Shown: positions 3,158 to 59,576 of the stretch, in pieces
How positions within the stretch are numbered: the stretch's first letter is position 1
Layout: the number at the start of each line of letters is the position of its first letter
Assembly (NCBI GenBank): GCA_015055615.1
Contig: SVHT01000001.1
Location: 186,001 to 250,000, forward strand
Origin: Clostridiales bacterium
Lineage (GTDB): Bacteria > Bacillota > Clostridia > Christensenellales > Borkfalkiaceae
Direction: 5' to 3'
Length of the DNA stretch: 64,000 nucleotides
The notes under the pieces: model-generated
Database searches by the model: none
Seen by the model: only the letters and a program-made list of their open reading frames with translations
What the model was told of the DNA's origin: nothing
Position numbers and translations under genes: made by a program

Positions 3158-3693
3158 ACGTCCTTTTAAGCTTATTGGGCGTGATCATATTGTTGTTTTT
3201 TCCGATTTATCTGCAAACGGACGGACATTACGACATGAACCGCCGAAAATTTGCTTTTGGGATATATCTATATAAGCGGTTACGCCTGCTCGGCGGATAC
3301 GTGGGGGTATATCCTGGCGGAATTGCCTTGCACGTCAGCGCAAAAAAGGCATTTTTGGTGCCGTATACGAAGATGAACAGCGAACGAAAACGGTTTTCCT
3401 TTATGCGTACTTTCCGTCTAATTTCGTGCATTTTTACGACAGAGACGGGCGCGGAATATCTTTTACCATTATCTTATGCACACGTGATTTTGCGAACGTA
3501 TTTTTTTGCGATAGGCAGGGAAAAGGAAGATATTGAAAACAACGTATGGTTGACAGACGGGGACGTTTTGCGTATTTCTGCAAGCGTTACTCTGCGTTTT
3601 AACTTGTTTTTAATCTTGAAAAACGTAATCAAATTTTTAAAGGAGAAAATAAAAGCATTATGGCGGAAAAAGAGAGAAAAATCAACAGTTTGA
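3139..3693 (+). CDS. DUF2953-like membrane-anchored protein
   Basis: 184 aa of unknown function. One strong N-terminal membrane segment (about residues 5-24) is followed by a mainly beta, basic cytoplasmic or external domain and a Lys/Arg-rich C-terminal tail (residues 160-184). Position directly before ytfJ, and overlapping it by 34 bp, matches the DUF2953 family found beside ytfJ in sporulating Bacillota, so a sporulation role is plausible by context only. The start lies inside the upstream terminator hairpin and has no clear ribosome binding site. Family call is moderate. Confidence 0.7.
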   Translation: MGKPFFYVLLSLLGVIILLFFPIYLQTDGHYDMNRRKFAFGIYLYKRLRLLGGYVGVYPGGIALHVSAKKAFLVPYTKMNSERKRFSFMRTFRLISCIFTTETGAEYLLPLSYAHVILRTYFFAIGREKEDIENNVWLTDGDVLRISASVTLRFNLFLILKNVIKFLKEKIKALWRKKREKSTV

Positions 3694-4031
3694 TTCAATC
3701 GTCCATGCAAAAACTCGACGATTTGGCTAGCGTGGACACCGTAATCGGGAAACCGATTGTAACGGCAAGCGGTTTTCAGCTGATTCCCTTTTCTAAAATC
3801 ACTTTGGGCAACGTGAGCGGCGGTGGGGAATACGGCGACGTGAAAATTGTCAAGGAAACCAACGAGTTTCCGTTTGCAGGCGGGAGTGGCGCTGTGGTCA
3901 GCATGAAACCGTTAGGCTTTATCGTGGACGACGGAAAAACTTGCCGTATTATGCGCGTTTCAGAGGAACCGATGGACAATCTTATCGAACGCGCTACGGA
4001 TATTTTACGTGAAATAACGGCGAAAGATTGA
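3660..4031 (+). CDS. ytfJ: GerW/YtfJ family sporulation protein
   Basis: Small soluble protein (123 aa) of the GerW family, in Bacillus a forespore protein needed for normal spore germination. The family block TVIGKPIVTASGFQLIPFSK, followed by the glycine-rich GNVSGGGEYG and GGSGAVVSMKPLGFIV, is clear. The ATG at 3660 has AAGGAG about 15 bases upstream, a long spacing, and translation may be coupled to the preceding gene. Its TGA (4029-4031) shares one base with the next ATG. It supports the view that this organism sporulates. Confidence 0.9.
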   Translation: MAEKERKINSLIQSSMQKLDDLASVDTVIGKPIVTASGFQLIPFSKITLGNVSGGGEYGDVKIVKETNEFPFAGGSGAVVSMKPLGFIVDDGKTCRIMRVSEEPMDNLIERATDILREITAKD

Positions 4032-5056
4032 TGAAACGGAAGATTATTATAGGGGTTTGCCTATGTTTTTTATGCACTATTCTCACGCCTTTTTTCTTTA
4101 TGAATAAGAATGCCAAAATTGTTTTCGCCAACAATAAAAACCCCGCAAAAGCCGTATGTGTTATGGAGCAAAGCAGTCGACGTGTTTTGTACGAATACAA
4201 CGGCGATACTCGCTTACCTATGGCAAGCACAACGAAGATTGCAACGGCGGCAATGGTTTTAGATATGCAAAAGGAGTTAAATCAATCCGTTATTATTCCT
4301 CATGAGGCAGTTGGCATCGAGGGCTCGTCTGTATATTTGAAGGAAAATGAAAGCTATTCAGTCCAAGACCTATTATACGGCTTGATGCTGCGCTCGGGCA
4401 ACGATTGCGCGACAGCTTTGGCTTTGCATTGCTGTGGAAACGTTGATTCATTTTGCGCTAAAATGAACGAAACGGCGCAAAGGGCGGGAGCGTTTGCCAC
4501 CGTGTTTAAAAATCCGCATGGTTTGCCCTGTAAGGGACATTATACAACGGCGCGCGATTTGTCCTTAATATCTTGTTATGCCATGGAAAATCCCGTTTTT
4601 CGCGCGATTGTCGCGACAAAATATTACGAGCCTTGCCATTGGAAAAACAAGAACAAAATGCTGACGGAATACGACGGTGTGGGGATAAAAACGGGCTACA
4701 CGAAAGAGGCGGGGCGGTGTTTGGTGTCCGCGCAAACAAAGGAGAATATGACGGTGATTTGCACGGTTTTGTCTTGTCCCGATATGTATGCGTATTCGGC
4801 ACAGTTACTCAGCGACGCTTTTTCTGCGTACCGATACGTTAAAATTGTGGATAAAGCGCAAGAATTTACGGTCGGTGACGGAAAAAACGCCGTAAAAGGG
4901 CGGTTGAACGAAGATTTTTATTATCCAATGATGGACGGTGAAGAAAATCAGCTGGAAATCAACATAAAACCTTGTTTTTCAACGGAAATCGTTGGGCAAA
5001 TTGAAATATATCTGGCAAAACGGTTGCTTTTTTCGGGGAATTTATATAAACTATAA
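4031..5056 (+). CDS. dacF: D-alanyl-D-alanine carboxypeptidase (DacF-like, S11 family)
   Basis: Penicillin-binding protein that trims the terminal D-Ala from peptidoglycan peptides outside the membrane. 341 aa. The N-terminal hydrophobic segment (residues 4-23) is a signal peptide or anchor. Catalytic motifs are STTK (S66 nucleophile, K69), SGN (in RSGNDCATA) and KTG (in GIKTGYT). A C-terminal PBP5-like beta domain follows. The ATG at 4031 overlaps the ytfJ stop by one base, indicating coupling; a TTG three bases earlier is not needed. Association with ytfJ and rluB fits the sporulation-type DacF/DacB group; which one cannot be settled here. Confidence 0.9.
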   Translation: MKRKIIIGVCLCFLCTILTPFFFMNKNAKIVFANNKNPAKAVCVMEQSSRRVLYEYNGDTRLPMASTTKIATAAMVLDMQKELNQSVIIPHEAVGIEGSSVYLKENESYSVQDLLYGLMLRSGNDCATALALHCCGNVDSFCAKMNETAQRAGAFATVFKNPHGLPCKGHYTTARDLSLISCYAMENPVFRAIVATKYYEPCHWKNKNKMLTEYDGVGIKTGYTKEAGRCLVSAQTKENMTVICTVLSCPDMYAYSAQLLSDAFSAYRYVKIVDKAQEFTVGDGKNAVKGRLNEDFYYPMMDGEENQLEINIKPCFSTEIVGQIEIYLAKRLLFSGNLYKL

Positions 5057-6806: not shown

Positions 6807-8059
6807 CATATTTCCGTTCGACTGACAACGAATTCAGTAAATTTTTCCGCGTAGCGCGCGGGAATCACCGCATGGATTGTCTGCCCGTCGTCGTTAAAAG
6901 ACGAGCTTCTTTCCGTAATCAAGGGTTTTAACGCTGCAAATTCGCCGATTTTTGCATAGGGCACGAACAACGTGCAAAAGAGTAGTTCCTCACGGAATTT
7001 CCGCAAAATTTCGTGCTTTAACGTATCGATACCGAGGTGTTCTTTCGCGGAAATCGCCACGCTCCCGTACGGCAACGCCGTTTTATCTGCAACCGTTTCA
7101 CTTTTGTTCATGACAATGAGATAGGGGGACGAAAAGTGCATCTCTTCCAAGGTGGAAAGGGTAGTTTTTAATTGCATATCGTATTCGCCCGTAGCGTCGC
7201 AAACAATCAACGCCAAATCACAATGCAGAGCGCTTTCTAACGTCGATTTAAACGCCTCGATGAGGTTGTGGGGTAAATCTTGCAGAAAACCGACGGTATC
7301 GACGAGCAGAAATTCCACACCGTCCACGTAAAAACTGCGTGCGGTGGGGTCAAGCGTTGCAAAAAGCTCGTTTTTGACGTACACGTCTGCGCCCGTCAAT
7401 AGATTCATTAGCGTTGATTTTCCCGTATTGGTATATCCGACGAGGGCAATCGTTTTGACGTTGGTTTTTTGTCTGCGCGCCGTTTGTAAAGAGCGGCGTT
7501 TTTCCGTTTCTTTTAGGCGATTTTCCAGATATTTTAGCCGTCCGCGGATATATCTACGGTCGGTTTCGAGCTTTGTTTCCCCTGGACCGCGCGTACCTAC
7601 GCCACCGCCAAGCCGCGACAACGCCTCGCCTTTACCCTTTAACCTTGGGTAGAGGTATTTCAGTTGCGCCAACTCAACCTGCAATTTCCCTTCGCCTGAG
7701 CGGGCGTTTTTAGCAAAAATATCCAAAATCAAGGTGGTTCGGTCAATGACCTTGCGGTTTTCGAGCGCCGCTGAGATATTCAAAGTCTGAGAGGGGGAGA
7801 GCTCGCCGTTAAAAAGGATTGTAATGCCTTCCAAGCCATACAGCCGTTCGTTTAGCTCTTGTAATTTGCCTTCGCCAACGAAGGTCGCAGCATTGATTTC
7901 ACGGATATTTTGATAAATCGTCCCCGCGTAAGCGGCTCCCGCGCTTTCAATCAACGACACCGCCTCGGCTTGCAAAACCTTGTATTTTGCTGCGTTTTCG
8001 CGCGTAATCGGCTGAATTATATAGATTTTTTCAATTATATTGTCAATATTTTCGTGCAT
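6806..8059 (-). CDS. hflX: Ribosome-associated GTPase HflX
   Basis: GTPase that binds 50S subunits and rescues stalled or heat-damaged ribosomes. 417 aa. An N-terminal HflX domain with LSPSQTLNISAAL is followed by the glycine-rich linker (RLGGGVGTRGPGETKLE) and the G domain: G1 GYTNTGKS, G3 DTVGF with the family signature QDLPHNLIEAFKSTLE, and G4 as NKSE instead of NKxD. Starts 10 bp after the recombinase gene stop and is probably co-transcribed with it. Confidence 0.95.
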   Translation of the reverse strand: MHENIDNIIEKIYIIQPITRENAAKYKVLQAEAVSLIESAGAAYAGTIYQNIREINAATFVGEGKLQELNERLYGLEGITILFNGELSPSQTLNISAALENRKVIDRTTLILDIFAKNARSGEGKLQVELAQLKYLYPRLKGKGEALSRLGGGVGTRGPGETKLETDRRYIRGRLKYLENRLKETEKRRSLQTARRQKTNVKTIALVGYTNTGKSTLMNLLTGADVYVKNELFATLDPTARSFYVDGVEFLLVDTVGFLQDLPHNLIEAFKSTLESALHCDLALIVCDATGEYDMQLKTTLSTLEEMHFSSPYLIVMNKSETVADKTALPYGSVAISAKEHLGIDTLKHEILRKFREELLFCTLFVPYAKIGEFAALKPLITERSSSFNDDGQTIHAVIPARYAEKFTEFVVSRTEI

Positions 8060-8068
8060 AGTCGTACG

Positions 8069-9160
8069 TTATTCTTCGTCGGAAGGAAGAGGGGGAGGCG
8101 TTGTGGTCGGTAAAGGTTCGTCGTCGCGCAATTTGACCATATTTGCCACACGGCGACGGTTATCTTCCGTGATAGCGGCGTAATGTTTTTTCGTCGTATT
8201 TACGTCTCGATGCCCCAAAACGTCGGCGACAATATAAATATCGCCCGTTTCGTTATACAAGCGCGTACCATAGGTGCTACGCAGCTTATGCGGAGTGATT
8301 TTCTTTAACGGGGACACCAATTTACTGTATTTTTTTACCAAAATCTCTACCGTACGGACGTTGATGCGTTTATATTGCATAGAAAGGAAGAAGGCTTTCT
8401 CATCCGAGGGAACCTTCGGGTCGTTCGATTTTTCCGCGATATATTCCTGCAAAGCGTACTTTACTTCGTTGGAAAAGAACAAAATCGCTTGATTTCCGCC
8501 TTTTCTCGTAACCAAAAAGGAGTTTTCTTCAAAATTAAAACTGTCATTATCTAAGCCAACCAATTCGCTGATACGGATACCAGTCCCCAAAAACAACGTC
8601 AAAATCGCCGTATCGCGGACTTTTGTCTTTGTGTGATAGCCCACAGCGTGGGGGGAAAGCCCGTAACCCGTTTCCGCCGTGGAAATCAGCTTGGAAACTT
8701 CGTTCGCATCCAAGCGAATTATCTCTTTATCATGCAGTTTCGGGGTAGGAACTTTGGCTGAATTATCAACCTCAATCATACCCTTGTTAAAAAAGTACTT
8801 GAACATCGCACGAACTGCCGAAAGTTTACGCGCCTTTGCCCGTTCGTCGCATGAGAGGTACTTATCGCGAAAGCGATAGTGGGACAAATAACTTAAAAAG
8901 AGTTCAATATCGTGGTGATTTATACCTTCCAGATGCTGTAAACTCATTTCTTGGATAGAAACACCGCGATATTTCTTTTGCGCCAAAAAATCGAAGAAAA
9001 TACGCAAATCATAGGCATATTTTAACCGAGTTTGCGAACTTGTGCGACTTTCTATCCCCAAAAAGTAATCCGCGCAGAAAGAGGGGAGCTCGTTTAAAAG
9101 CTCTTCTATCTTTTCTAAATCGCTGATATTACGTTTGACATAGTAGTTGTTTGTTTTCAT
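8069..9160 (-). CDS. Tyrosine recombinase, XerC/XerD-like
   Basis: Site-specific DNA recombinase, 363 aa from the ATG at 9160 (an in-frame TTG 18 bases upstream overlaps the -10 box and is rejected). N-terminal SAM-like core-binding domain (about 30-130) and C-terminal catalytic domain with Arg in GIRISELVG, HxxR in HKLRST, the second His in LGHRDVNTTKKHY and the Tyr nucleophile in the same block. Longer than typical Xer proteins (about 300 aa). Operonic with hflX and no element boundaries around it, so chromosomal dimer resolution is likelier than mobility. It could supply integrase activity in trans to the tRNA-Thr island, which lacks one; that is speculation. Confidence 0.88.
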   Translation of the reverse strand: MKTNNYYVKRNISDLEKIEELLNELPSFCADYFLGIESRTSSQTRLKYAYDLRIFFDFLAQKKYRGVSIQEMSLQHLEGINHHDIELFLSYLSHYRFRDKYLSCDERAKARKLSAVRAMFKYFFNKGMIEVDNSAKVPTPKLHDKEIIRLDANEVSKLISTAETGYGLSPHAVGYHTKTKVRDTAILTLFLGTGIRISELVGLDNDSFNFEENSFLVTRKGGNQAILFFSNEVKYALQEYIAEKSNDPKVPSDEKAFFLSMQYKRINVRTVEILVKKYSKLVSPLKKITPHKLRSTYGTRLYNETGDIYIVADVLGHRDVNTTKKHYAAITEDNRRRVANMVKLRDDEPLPTTTPPPLPSDEE

Positions 9161-9166
9161 GCTTTT

Positions 9167-9195
9167 ATTATACAACAAAGATGGGGAATTGTCAA
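9167..9195 (-). promoter_or_regulatory. Consensus sigma-A promoter giving a leaderless recombinase mRNA
   Basis: Minus strand TTGACA (9190-9195), 17-bp spacer, TATAAT (9167-9172), both perfect. Only six bases separate the -10 from the ATG at 9160, so the predicted +1 coincides with the start codon. Confidence 0.75.
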
Positions 9196-22083: not shown

Positions 22084-22169
22084 GCCGAAGTGGTGGAATG
22101 GCAGACGCGACGGACTCAAAATCCGTTGGTAGTGATACCGTGTGGGTTCAAGTCCCACCTTCGGCACCA
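22084..22169 (+). tRNA. tRNA-Leu (anticodon CAA)
   Basis: 86 nt with encoded CCA. Acceptor stem GCCGAAG/CTTCGGC, anticodon stem ACGGA/TCCGT with loop CTCAAAA (anticodon CAA, codon UUG), a long variable arm typical of class II tRNAs, and T arm GTGGG/CCCAC with GTTCAAG in the loop. Own promoter and terminator. Confidence 0.97.
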
Positions 22170-57323: not shown

Positions 57324-57399
57324 GCTACTGTGGCTCAGTCGGTAGAGCAGCTGATTCGTAATCAGCAGGTCGCCGGTTCAAGTCCGGCCAGTAGCTCCA
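57324..57399 (+). tRNA. tRNA-Thr (anticodon CGU)
   Basis: 76 nt with encoded CCA. Acceptor stem GCTACTG/CAGTAGC, anticodon stem GCTGA/TCAGC with loop TTCGTAA (anticodon CGT, codon ACG), T arm GCCGG/CCGGC. Its 3' half is the left end of an integrated island. Confidence 0.97.
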
Positions 57400-57403
57400 A
57401 AAA
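57354..57403 (+). repeat. Left attachment site (in tRNA-Thr)
   Basis: 50 bp from the anticodon loop through the CCA and five A's, identical to 59491-59540. Left flank keeps the complete tRNA. Confidence 0.85.
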
Positions 57404-57428
57404 GGAAAGTTGTGCATAGCAATTTTCC
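57404..57428 (+). terminator. Island-supplied terminator for tRNA-Thr
   Basis: GGAAAGTTG (57404-57412) pairs with CAATTTTCC (57420-57428) with one G-U, followed by T-rich DNA. Confidence 0.7.
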
Positions 57429-57455
57429 TTTTCTTTTTATAGTCTCATATATACG

Positions 57456-57484
57456 TTGACAAAGAATAAATGAACTGTTATAAT
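57456..57484 (+). promoter_or_regulatory. Promoter of the island ATPase gene
   Basis: Perfect TTGACA (57456-57461), 17-bp spacer, perfect TATAAT (57479-57484); GGAGG at 57491-57495 before the ATG at 57503. Confidence 0.8.
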
Positions 57485-57502
57485 ATATTTGGAGGTATAC
57501 TT

Positions 57503-59311
57503 ATGATAAAAATTAAAGATATTTACGCAGGTAAACCTGATGCAAAAGATGAAATCGAAGTAGAAGGCTATGAAAAATTTTTAGATAGTTACATAACACC
57601 ATCTTGTTTTGATGCAGATAATTTGATTAATGGCACATTTTGCTTTATTTCTGGATATAAAGGAACTGGTAAAACAGCTTTATTATATTATTTACAAGAT
57701 TATGTTTCAAATATTGACCAATCCACAGTTACATCTTTTATTTTATTTAAAGGGGATTATTCCGATATTGAGAGGCAGGAAATGCTTCACTTATCAAAAC
57801 GGCTTGTTTCAACGATATCTATCTCTAATGACATAATATTAGAGGGAGAAGATTTTGAAATAATTTGGAGATGGCTTTTTTATATTAGAATTTGGGAGGA
57901 TAATAAAAATTCTAACGAAAACTTATTTTTAAAGGACGATAAATGGAAACAATTTGAATCGATAATAAAGAAAATTAATAATATTGCAAATAAGAGAAAA
58001 TTGGTCATTCCTCGTATATTTAAGATAGGTCTTACGATGACCCAAGCAGACACATCAATTAGGCCCGAAGCAGAAATAGATTTTTCGGACCCTCAAGCAA
58101 CAAATACAGCCGCATACCGTAAATTAGTAAAATATATAGAAGAATTAGATGCTATTTTCCCTACATTACAAAGAACTGATATTCCATATTACATATTTGT
58201 CGATGAATTAGAAGCCTATTATGGAGAAGATAAAGTATTTAAAAGAGATTTAAAATTAATAAGAGACTTGATTTTTACAATAAAAAAATTAAACTTAGTT
58301 GCTCGTAATATGGTTGGAGGAAAAATTAAAATCATCTGTTCTATTAGAAAAGAAATAATAAATTCTATAAACCGATTTGTTGTTACAAAAGAGTTAAACA
58401 AGACGACTTCTGGATTCGATGTTCCTCTTAATTGGAATTATAGCAATACAAATTCATTTGAGCATCCAATTTTAAAGATATTGTTAAAAAGAATCCTCAT
58501 GGCAGAAAAGCTACCTGATACAATAGAGAATGAGAAACAAATCATTAAAAAATGGTTCCCTGCTTCTATCGAGGATTTTGATGCGGCAAGCTATATATTA
58601 AACAATAGCTGGTTTAAACCTCGTGATATAGTAAGGTTAATTTTAACAGCAAAAACAGGATTAAGTGGAGAAAACACTTCATTTAATGCTAACACCTTTC
58701 ATCTTATAAGAAAAGAATATTCAAGAGAAAGTTTAAATGAAATCCGCGAAGAAATGCGAGCATTATATTCCGAAAATGAAATCGATACGATTTTTTCTTG
58801 CTTAACGGGATTTCGCAAAGTATTTTCATTAAAGAATATAGAAGAGCGAATTGAAAAATATTTTTCACAGACCTTTTTAAAAGAAAAACTTCAAGATATT
58901 TTGCAAGATTTATATAGATTAGGCGTTTTAGGCAATTATTCCAGAATTGGTGATTTATATCGTTGGCAACATAAAGGCGATGATAAACTTATTTTATCTG
59001 ATGATTGGGGAATAACTATTCATTTTGCATTGCAAAGTATCTTATCGGTAAATAGTAAGTTAGATAGCGGTTTAAACAACTATGAGCAACGAATAAAAGT
59101 TGGTAATTGTTATGAAAGCATAATAATAAATTTCAATAACAACTATATATTTGTAGAATTTGAAAATAATCAAAAACAATATACTGGCTATATAAATAGA
59201 AGATTCTCATATATGCCCGATTCAAAAATCAAAGAAGGCGCATCATTAAATGCGCAAATCATAGGTTATGACAACACAACAAAAAACTGGTCAATGATAA
59301 TAAAAAATTGA
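57503..59311 (+). CDS. Island-borne P-loop ATPase with possible C-terminal OB/S1-like domain
   Basis: 602 aa. Walker A GYKGTGKT at residues 51-58, Walker B YYIFVDELEAYYG with Asp234-Glu235, and a sensor-like CSIRKEI (279-285): an AAA+/STAND-type ATPase like those annotated as Sll1717-family P-loop ATPases. A winged-helix-like region lies at about 445-530 (FSLKNIEERIEKYF; ILQDLYRLGVLGNYSR). The last 70 residues (NCYESIIINFNNNYIFVEF; YTGYINRRF; GASLNAQIIGYD) resemble an S1/OB fold. It is the only full gene of a tRNA-Thr island, has a consensus promoter and strong ribosome binding site, and is AT-rich. An anti-phage or DNA-transaction role is plausible but unproven. Confidence 0.8.
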   Translation: MIKIKDIYAGKPDAKDEIEVEGYEKFLDSYITPSCFDADNLINGTFCFISGYKGTGKTALLYYLQDYVSNIDQSTVTSFILFKGDYSDIERQEMLHLSKRLVSTISISNDIILEGEDFEIIWRWLFYIRIWEDNKNSNENLFLKDDKWKQFESIIKKINNIANKRKLVIPRIFKIGLTMTQADTSIRPEAEIDFSDPQATNTAAYRKLVKYIEELDAIFPTLQRTDIPYYIFVDELEAYYGEDKVFKRDLKLIRDLIFTIKKLNLVARNMVGGKIKIICSIRKEIINSINRFVVTKELNKTTSGFDVPLNWNYSNTNSFEHPILKILLKRILMAEKLPDTIENEKQIIKKWFPASIEDFDAASYILNNSWFKPRDIVRLILTAKTGLSGENTSFNANTFHLIRKEYSRESLNEIREEMRALYSENEIDTIFSCLTGFRKVFSLKNIEERIEKYFSQTFLKEKLQDILQDLYRLGVLGNYSRIGDLYRWQHKGDDKLILSDDWGITIHFALQSILSVNSKLDSGLNNYEQRIKVGNCYESIIINFNNNYIFVEFENNQKQYTGYINRRFSYMPDSKIKEGASLNAQIIGYDNTTKNWSMIIKN

Positions 59312-59349
59312 CACGAACCTTCTTTGAAATACAAATTCTTATTTTACAA

Positions 59350-59378
59350 AAAAGACGTATCAAAACGATACGTCTTTT
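59350..59378. terminator. Bidirectional terminator inside the island
   Basis: AAAAGACGTATC and GATACGTCTTTT, perfect 12-bp stem; separates the ATPase gene from the convergent truncated frame. Confidence 0.9.
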
Positions 59379-59382
59379 AATT

Positions 59383-59481
59383 TTATATCAATTTCAACAA
59401 TGCTTCTTTTTTATCGGGCGAAACAGATTGCAACTTTTCAATTATTTGTTTGTCTTGTTGGTACAAAGTTGAAAAAGAGTA
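59383..59481 (-). pseudogene. 3' tail of a truncated XRE-like regulator gene
   Basis: On the minus strand 32 codons are open and end in TAA at 59383: the peptide includes YQQDKQIIEKLQSVSPDKKEALLKLI... which matches the usual C-terminal pattern of phage/ICE XRE repressors (a 'LSPEDKEALL'-like end). A stop codon lies just upstream, next to the right attachment site at 59491, so only the tail survives. It faces the terminator as a real gene would. Short, so the family call is tentative. Confidence 0.45.
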
Positions 59482-59490
59482 TTAAATTAT

Positions 59491-59540
59491 ATTCGTAATC
59501 AGCAGGTCGCCGGTTCAAGTCCGGCCAGTAGCTCCAAAAA
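59491..59540 (+). repeat. Right attachment site (tRNA-Thr 3' fragment)
   Basis: Exact copy of the tRNA-Thr 3' half and following A's. It lacks the 5' half of the tRNA and its promoter, so it is not a second tRNA gene. Confidence 0.85.
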
Positions 59541-59573
59541 ATACCCAACCACTTTGTAGGTTGGGTATTTTTT
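59536..59573. terminator. Terminator beyond the right attachment site
   Basis: AAAAAATACCCAACC and GGTTGGGTATTTTTT, perfect 15-bp stem. Probably the original terminator of tRNA-Thr before insertion; now also closes the convergent membrane-protein gene. Confidence 0.9.
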
Positions 59574-59576
59574 GAT

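Follow-up and report, generated by a model that had tools for sequence, protein, structure and literature searches.

A probably decayed, integrase-less island in a clostridial tRNA-Thr(CGU) gene and its candidate defence ATPase, a relative of phage P2 Fun(Z)

The window analysed here is a stretch of 64,000 nucleotides from the genome of a Clostridiales bacterium of the family Borkfalkiaceae (assembly GCA_015055615.1, contig SVHT01000001.1, positions 186,001 to 250,000), and the concern is with an island that lies within its tRNA-Thr(CGU) gene and carries one intact gene, that for a P-loop ATPase of the Sll1717 family (Table 1). The anticodon, CGT, was assigned by ARAGORN. An earlier examination of the letters alone, here termed the sequence-only reading, had described an exact duplication of the 3' part of the tRNA gene some 2.1 kb downstream, and so it is: the direct repeats agree at 50 of 50 positions with the copies 2137 bp apart, while in shuffled flanks of the window (20 shuffles each) the longest match was 14 bp for 3-kb flanks and 15 bp for 10-kb flanks. 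The DNA between (57404-59490), rightly called AT-rich, has a guanine plus cytosine (GC) content of 28.6%, which equals the minimum of 620 overlapping stretches of the same length in the window, and in 7 of the 620 the value is 0.313 or lower. At third codon positions the GC content of the ATPase open reading frame (ORF), 0.22, is the lowest among the 47 ORFs of at least 150 amino acids (aa), for which the mean is 0.49. The ATPase is, as the sequence-only reading had it, the single complete gene, and there is no gene for replication or transfer. Neither, again in agreement with it, is there an integrase: the intact gene has no integrase domain and a search of the whole genome with PF00589 gave no match within the island. 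Since it encodes none, the island is classed with remnants or dependent elements, not with autonomous ones. Two features had gone unreported, the remnant of a regulator gene with a helix-turn-helix (HTH) domain near the right end and the hairpin that the island carries directly behind the tRNA.

Table 1. Positions in the window of the tRNA gene, the attachment-site (att) repeats and the contents of the island
Feature	Position	Strand	Basis or remark
tRNA-Thr(CGU), integration target, restored by left repeat	57324..57399	+	ARAGORN; single copy at G033 empty site
attL, 50-bp core, from anticodon stem-loop to just beyond tRNA 3' end	57354..57403	+	exact direct repeat
terminator-like hairpin carried by island, directly behind tRNA	57400..57432	+	sequence
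sigma-70-type consensus promoter of ATPase gene, TTGACA-17-TATAAT	57456..57484	+	12/12 matches
Sll1717/Fun(Z)-family P-loop ATPase, 602 aa, C-terminal S1/OB fold predicted (residues ~529-602)	57503..59311	+	NF047389; phrog_13260; structure model
palindromic terminator-like hairpin, between ATPase gene and HTH remnant	59350..59378	.	sequence
remnant, last 26 codons and stop of XRE-type HTH regulator gene	59383..59463	-	similarity to G035 HTH gene; peptide match
element right end, 29 bp adjoining attR, common to G035 element	59462..59490	+	93% identical to G035:C42:749-777
attR, displaced original tRNA 3' end	59491..59540	+	exact direct repeat
terminator-like hairpin behind attR	59535-59574		similar hairpin after tRNA at G033 empty site

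Is the second copy of the repeat the residue of a decayed tandem tRNA gene, or even an artefact of assembly? Immediately before it, just 6 of 30 bases agree with the 5' half of the tRNA, and a copy that has no tRNA 5' half is not a tandem tRNA. Of 57 genomes of the genus, among them the window's own (G000), 51 matched a 4.9-kb query spanning the locus in some way. In one congener, G033, the left flank (query 1-1404, 79% identical) and the right flank (query 3492-4901, 74% identical) stand on one contig, and their overlap is the 50-bp core exactly. G033 therefore has no island at this site, and directly behind its tRNA stands a hairpin like that behind the window's right repeat. This is the comparison of related genomes across the tRNA that the sequence-only reading had proposed. 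With nearly the same core in use by islands in other genera, a tandem gene or artefact of assembly is scarcely credible; no point was found in its favour, and the decayed tandem gene, which the sequence-only reading had itself named as what would undo its claim, was rejected on the exact empty site and the 6/30 upstream match. Site-specific insertion into the tRNA gene it is, and the tyrosine-integrase footprint seen earlier is supported by that empty site together with the integrases described below. An integrative element would have entered tRNA-Thr(CGU) by the action of a tyrosine recombinase between attP, the site on the incoming element, and the core from anticodon loop to 3' end, with the left repeat restoring the tRNA and the right repeat being the displaced 3' end, as the empty site shows. 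Acquisition by a tyrosine recombinase is almost certain. Across the genus, a pattern search allowing up to 3 mismatches found the core in 34 of the 57 genomes, once in 32 and twice in 2 (the window's own and G035); many of the 23 in which it was not found are incomplete assemblies. Behind the same tRNA-Thr(CGU) in another genome of the set (G032, L023:2314-8012) are about 5.7 kb of other variable genes with no second core copy, and so what follows this tRNA varies between species.

The site is also used by other elements within the family. In a member of another genus (G611), an island of 8.2 kb, flanked by exact 49-bp copies and with nearly the same core, has a tyrosine integrase (Phage_integrase, E 4.2e-16) and, near the right repeat, an HTH regulator. 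Further, members of a single clade of tyrosine integrases lie 155-187 bp from the tRNA-Thr core in four genomes, one of the same genus (G055) and three others (G096, G057 and G615); these are four of the ten clade matches, which were found in 8 of 301 genomes. The island thus belongs to a familiar type of element, of which it is a reduced example. With the elements that tyrosine integrases place in tRNA genes, using cores from anticodon loop to 3' end, it has in common the duplication of the tRNA 3' part, the empty site in a congener and integrases at the same tRNA in relatives; it differs in having no integrase, replication or transfer gene and but a single intact gene.

How does it come to have no integrase? 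The sequence-only reading left two courses open, reliance on a helper or loss, and it is for the latter that the right end of the island speaks. Positions 59349-59463 of the window match the 3' end region of an HTH gene of G035 with 86% identity (E 6.9e-32), and the product of that gene matches HTH_3 at E 7.9e-7; read on its minus strand, the window still has YQQDKQIIEKLQSVSPDKKEALLKLI ahead of the stop, with the final 26 residues as encoded by the G035 gene. In G035 the element is spread over two contigs, one with the intact HTH gene beside the tRNA and the other with the right end and a second copy of the core (2 mismatches in 46). Parts that are on separate contigs there touch in the window, at a junction near 59463, and the simplest reading is that the window's element lost its middle. 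The ATPase gene has the left repeat on one side and the HTH remnant on the other, at a place where G035 has just 46 bp from the tRNA to the matching stretch. From sequence comparison, then, the fusion of the HTH remnant with the right end points to internal deletion within a larger element, and with the middle would have gone the body of the HTH gene and, presumably, the integrase. A query with this tail of the island also gave 30-54 bp matches in G034, G046, G047 and the window's own genome, which covered the hairpin region and were set aside, and the right-end pattern had 0 exact matches in viral contigs. Just inside the right repeat of G035 (L026:660-780) a promoter-like sequence, a ribosome site and an ATG run into a stop codon, as if, on a reading of the sequence, a gene had been deleted there too.

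The rival account, that the island is a minimal cassette which needs no integrase of its own and is moved by that of some other element in this tRNA gene, much as clusters of attC sites lacking integron-integrases (CALINs) and miniature inverted-repeat transposable elements (MITEs) use a helper, has several things to commend it. The 29 bp of the right end and the core are common to the G035 element, integrases for tRNA-Thr(CGU) exist in the bacterial family, and in another genome (G626, L117:65-5557) an att-flanked island of 5.46 kb at tRNA-Thr(CGU), on a single contig with a 37-bp repeat and proteins with BspA-type leucine-rich repeats, yielded no integrase in the three ORFs scanned by Pfam. 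Literature precedent is at hand as well: dependent elements that arose through loss of an integrase are described in PMC11389934. Such hitchers, among which are phage satellites besides CALINs and MITEs, resemble the island in having recombination sites without a recombinase gene; the island, by comparison, is neither an array nor a transposon and has no packaging genes. The HTH remnant, moreover, resembles decay and not design, and the ATPase gene is confined to 1 of the 201 genomes searched, the window's own (0 of 200 other relatives). In that genome no match to the tRNA-Thr integrase clade was found at E 1e-60, and the three PF00589 proteins that it encodes share just 22-31% identity with those at tRNA-Thr, though a helper need not share the genome and the assembly is 94% complete. 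One of the three, a tyrosine recombinase encoded on the minus strand at 8069-9178 of the window, is by its reading presumably Xer-like and its neighbour an HflX-like GTPase; it looks chromosomal and not like an island integrase. On balance the cassette seems an unlikely account, and of the two courses loss by deletion, favoured by the remnant at the right end, is somewhat the likelier over help in trans. The island may still be mobile today, as we infer. There are points to be set against the deletion too. The former integrase itself is something we infer, as the island has no recognisable piece of one; the middle of the G035 element is outside its two contigs, and that element may itself lack an integrase.

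What of the gene that was kept? It has its own promoter, from which it would be transcribed. The consensus promoter and strong ribosome binding site claimed for it are there: among 10 promoter-like sites (12.9 in shuffles) its promoter is the sole perfect one, with TG before the second hexamer, and GGAGG stands 7 nucleotides upstream of the ATG. The protein belongs to the P-loop ATPases of NCBIfam NF047389, the Sll1717 family (E 2.5e-74; 251 bits against a curated cut-off of 75; profile positions 2-453 of 454), and matches phrog_13260 at E 1.7e-45. Its GYKGTGKT and DELEAYY, which we take to be Walker A and an acidic Walker B-like motif, are intact, and in 12 aligned members G.KGTGKT and DELEA[YF][YF] are present in all 12 and KPRD in 11, the remaining one being cut short. 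The ATPase fold is a predicted one, and in the model the C-terminus is an OB barrel of the S1 type, a kind of domain that binds RNA. By analogy the ATPase would be AAA+/STAND-like; set against STAND and AAA+ proteins of known structure (RdrA, BrxC, CED-4, TnsC, ORC), its fold has similar Z scores to several AAA+ families among those listed by the search, and no one family is singled out. A search of the PDB by sequence gave no significant relative.

Fun(Z) of phage P2 is in the same family. It (L152:2501-4087) matches NF047389 with 209 bits (E 1.1e-61) and phrog_13260 at E 4.6e-212. Direct comparison of the two proteins gives 22% identity over 468 columns in BLASTP (E 6e-9 for the single pair), and hhalign aligns residues 2-518 of the window ATPase to 2-524 of Fun(Z) with 97% probability. 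A tblastn search of phages returned one record at E 1e-5 or below, a P2-like Klebsiella phage matching residues 298-516, whose 503-aa ORF (L115:4179-5690) has E 6e-81 against NF047389; at a permissive limit P2 fun(Z) came up as a weak match (E 0.6). With Fun(Z) and its Klebsiella homologue inside it, NF047389 gains one experimentally tested member. The annotation of Fun(Z) in the P2 record reads 'cloned gene blocks growth of T5', and sensitivity to 5-fluorodeoxyuridine (FUdR) is given there as a further effect. In PMC8594841, Fun/Z is reported to inhibit all Tevenvirinae, Vequintavirinae and Markadamsvirinae of the BASEL collection and to act on T5 'via an unknown mechanism'. PMC9122126 nowhere has the word 'fun'. 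In the open-licence literature of PMC, 'Sll1717' gave 0 papers, no paper stood out that links Fun/Z to NF047389, and none was found on a Fun/Z-family ATPase extended by an S1 domain. The two proteins have NF047389 and PHROG 13260 in common along almost the whole of Fun(Z), as well as the KGTGKT motif, and each is encoded by a single gene on a mobile element; Fun(Z), by contrast, is of 528 aa with no S1 domain and sits between P2 tail genes, the window gene being in a tRNA island.

Do the relatives keep company that fits? In a scan of 391 genomes of the class, 87 had a match at E 0.001 and just 7 exceeded the cut-off, the weak ones being dropped; besides the window's there were thus 6, one of which, L053, was left out of later scanning. 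A scan of genome contigs with a single protein as query confirmed 0 relatives, and with a two-sequence alignment as query 11, with L145 and L050, which appear from their length and ORFs to be one contig, counted once; L143 ends within the gene for the relative and L145 is truncated. By Pfam, restriction-modification (R-M) or defence-type genes lie near 6 of the 11: AAA_21 with RloB in L141; AAA_21 with DUF4276 and an M78 peptidase in L136; N6/N4 methylases in L140; a D12 methylase in L144; HsdM and HsdS-type proteins in L145/L050; and DpnII with HNH in L146. Only 20 neighbour proteins were scanned from a larger ORF set, and as most of a second batch, with the two of L141, were picked for already resembling R-M or defence genes, the 6 in 11 should not be taken for an unbiased proportion. 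More distant members of the family, in other genomes of the class, include fusions to TIR (L051:1288-3594) and to an N-terminal cold-shock domain, CSD (L048:1462-3159), and others adjoin genes for DUF2971 (L049) or FRG (L052).

These comparisons lend support to the guess of the sequence-only reading that this is a mobile defence gene, and a role of the ATPase in defence is quite likely. The other possibility is a regulatory or stress protein that rides on the island, for which the S1 domain would point to translation or RNA turnover; with P2 Fun(Z) in the same family, a homologue in a P2-like Klebsiella phage and R-M-type neighbours of relatives, this seems rather improbable. On the analogy, single-gene phage defence would be the most likely job. 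A cue induced by phage, which might involve RNA or the ribosome and be read by the S1 domain, would trigger an ATP-dependent change of oligomer in the ATPase and so stop phage production; P2 Fun(Z) stops it too, by a mechanism described as unknown. All in all, what lies in tRNA-Thr(CGU) is probably, on its sequence features, a decayed, integrase-less island that keeps one Fun/Z-type defence gene. Several observations weigh against this. The function of the ATPase may differ from that of Fun(Z), since identity is just 22% and the Fun(Z) match stops before the S1 domain; the structure model is middling (mean pLDDT, the predicted local distance difference test, 74.7); the best matches in plain Foldseek are weak, 4 having E 0.001 or below; PADLOC gives the ATPase just a weak match (mad8, E 0.0035); and L137, L138, L139 and L142 have no defence-type neighbour among the scanned proteins, those of L143 being outside the scan. 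A bolder thought, and a distinctly long shot, is that a class of minimal tRNA-Thr(CGU) islands with conserved ends and one or few cargo genes spreads among these bacteria with the help of tRNA-Thr integrases encoded by other elements, and carries an S1-fused Fun/Z ATPase that senses RNA or translation altered by phage.

Two of the 11 relatives are 0.4-0.5 kb behind a tRNA gene, for which the chance figure of 0.007 depends on a tRNA density that was guessed and is a hint only. In L139 (L139:9493-13257) the relative and one further ORF follow tRNA-Ser(CGA) and are enclosed by two copies, 3.7 kb apart, of the terminator region of that tRNA. This repeat, with 31 bp exact and a total of about 97 columns, does not include most of the tRNA and for that reason was not taken as an att pair. 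A flank match of 24 bp, 5.3 kb apart, is present in L141, and repeats flanking the remaining relatives are of 17 bp at most, within the shuffle range (maximum 18). No relative was confirmed in viral contigs, and tblastn of plasmids gave 1 record, of Paracoccus, at 27%.

A few minor observations concern other tRNA genes and stray cores. The tRNA-Leu(CAA) gene at 22084-22169 was examined for a second island, and no other copy of at least 15 bases is in the window. In G637 a copy of the tRNA-Thr core stands by itself at 7542, in a stretch where ARAGORN finds no tRNA, and near it is a gene for a TIR-domain protein (L122:5941-7107; TIR_2, E 1.7e-19). The first 1.1 kb of contig C7 of the window's own genome (L044), at a contig end, has a phage-type integrase gene beside tRNA-Leu(TAA), which is probably part of another integrative element, cut by assembly.
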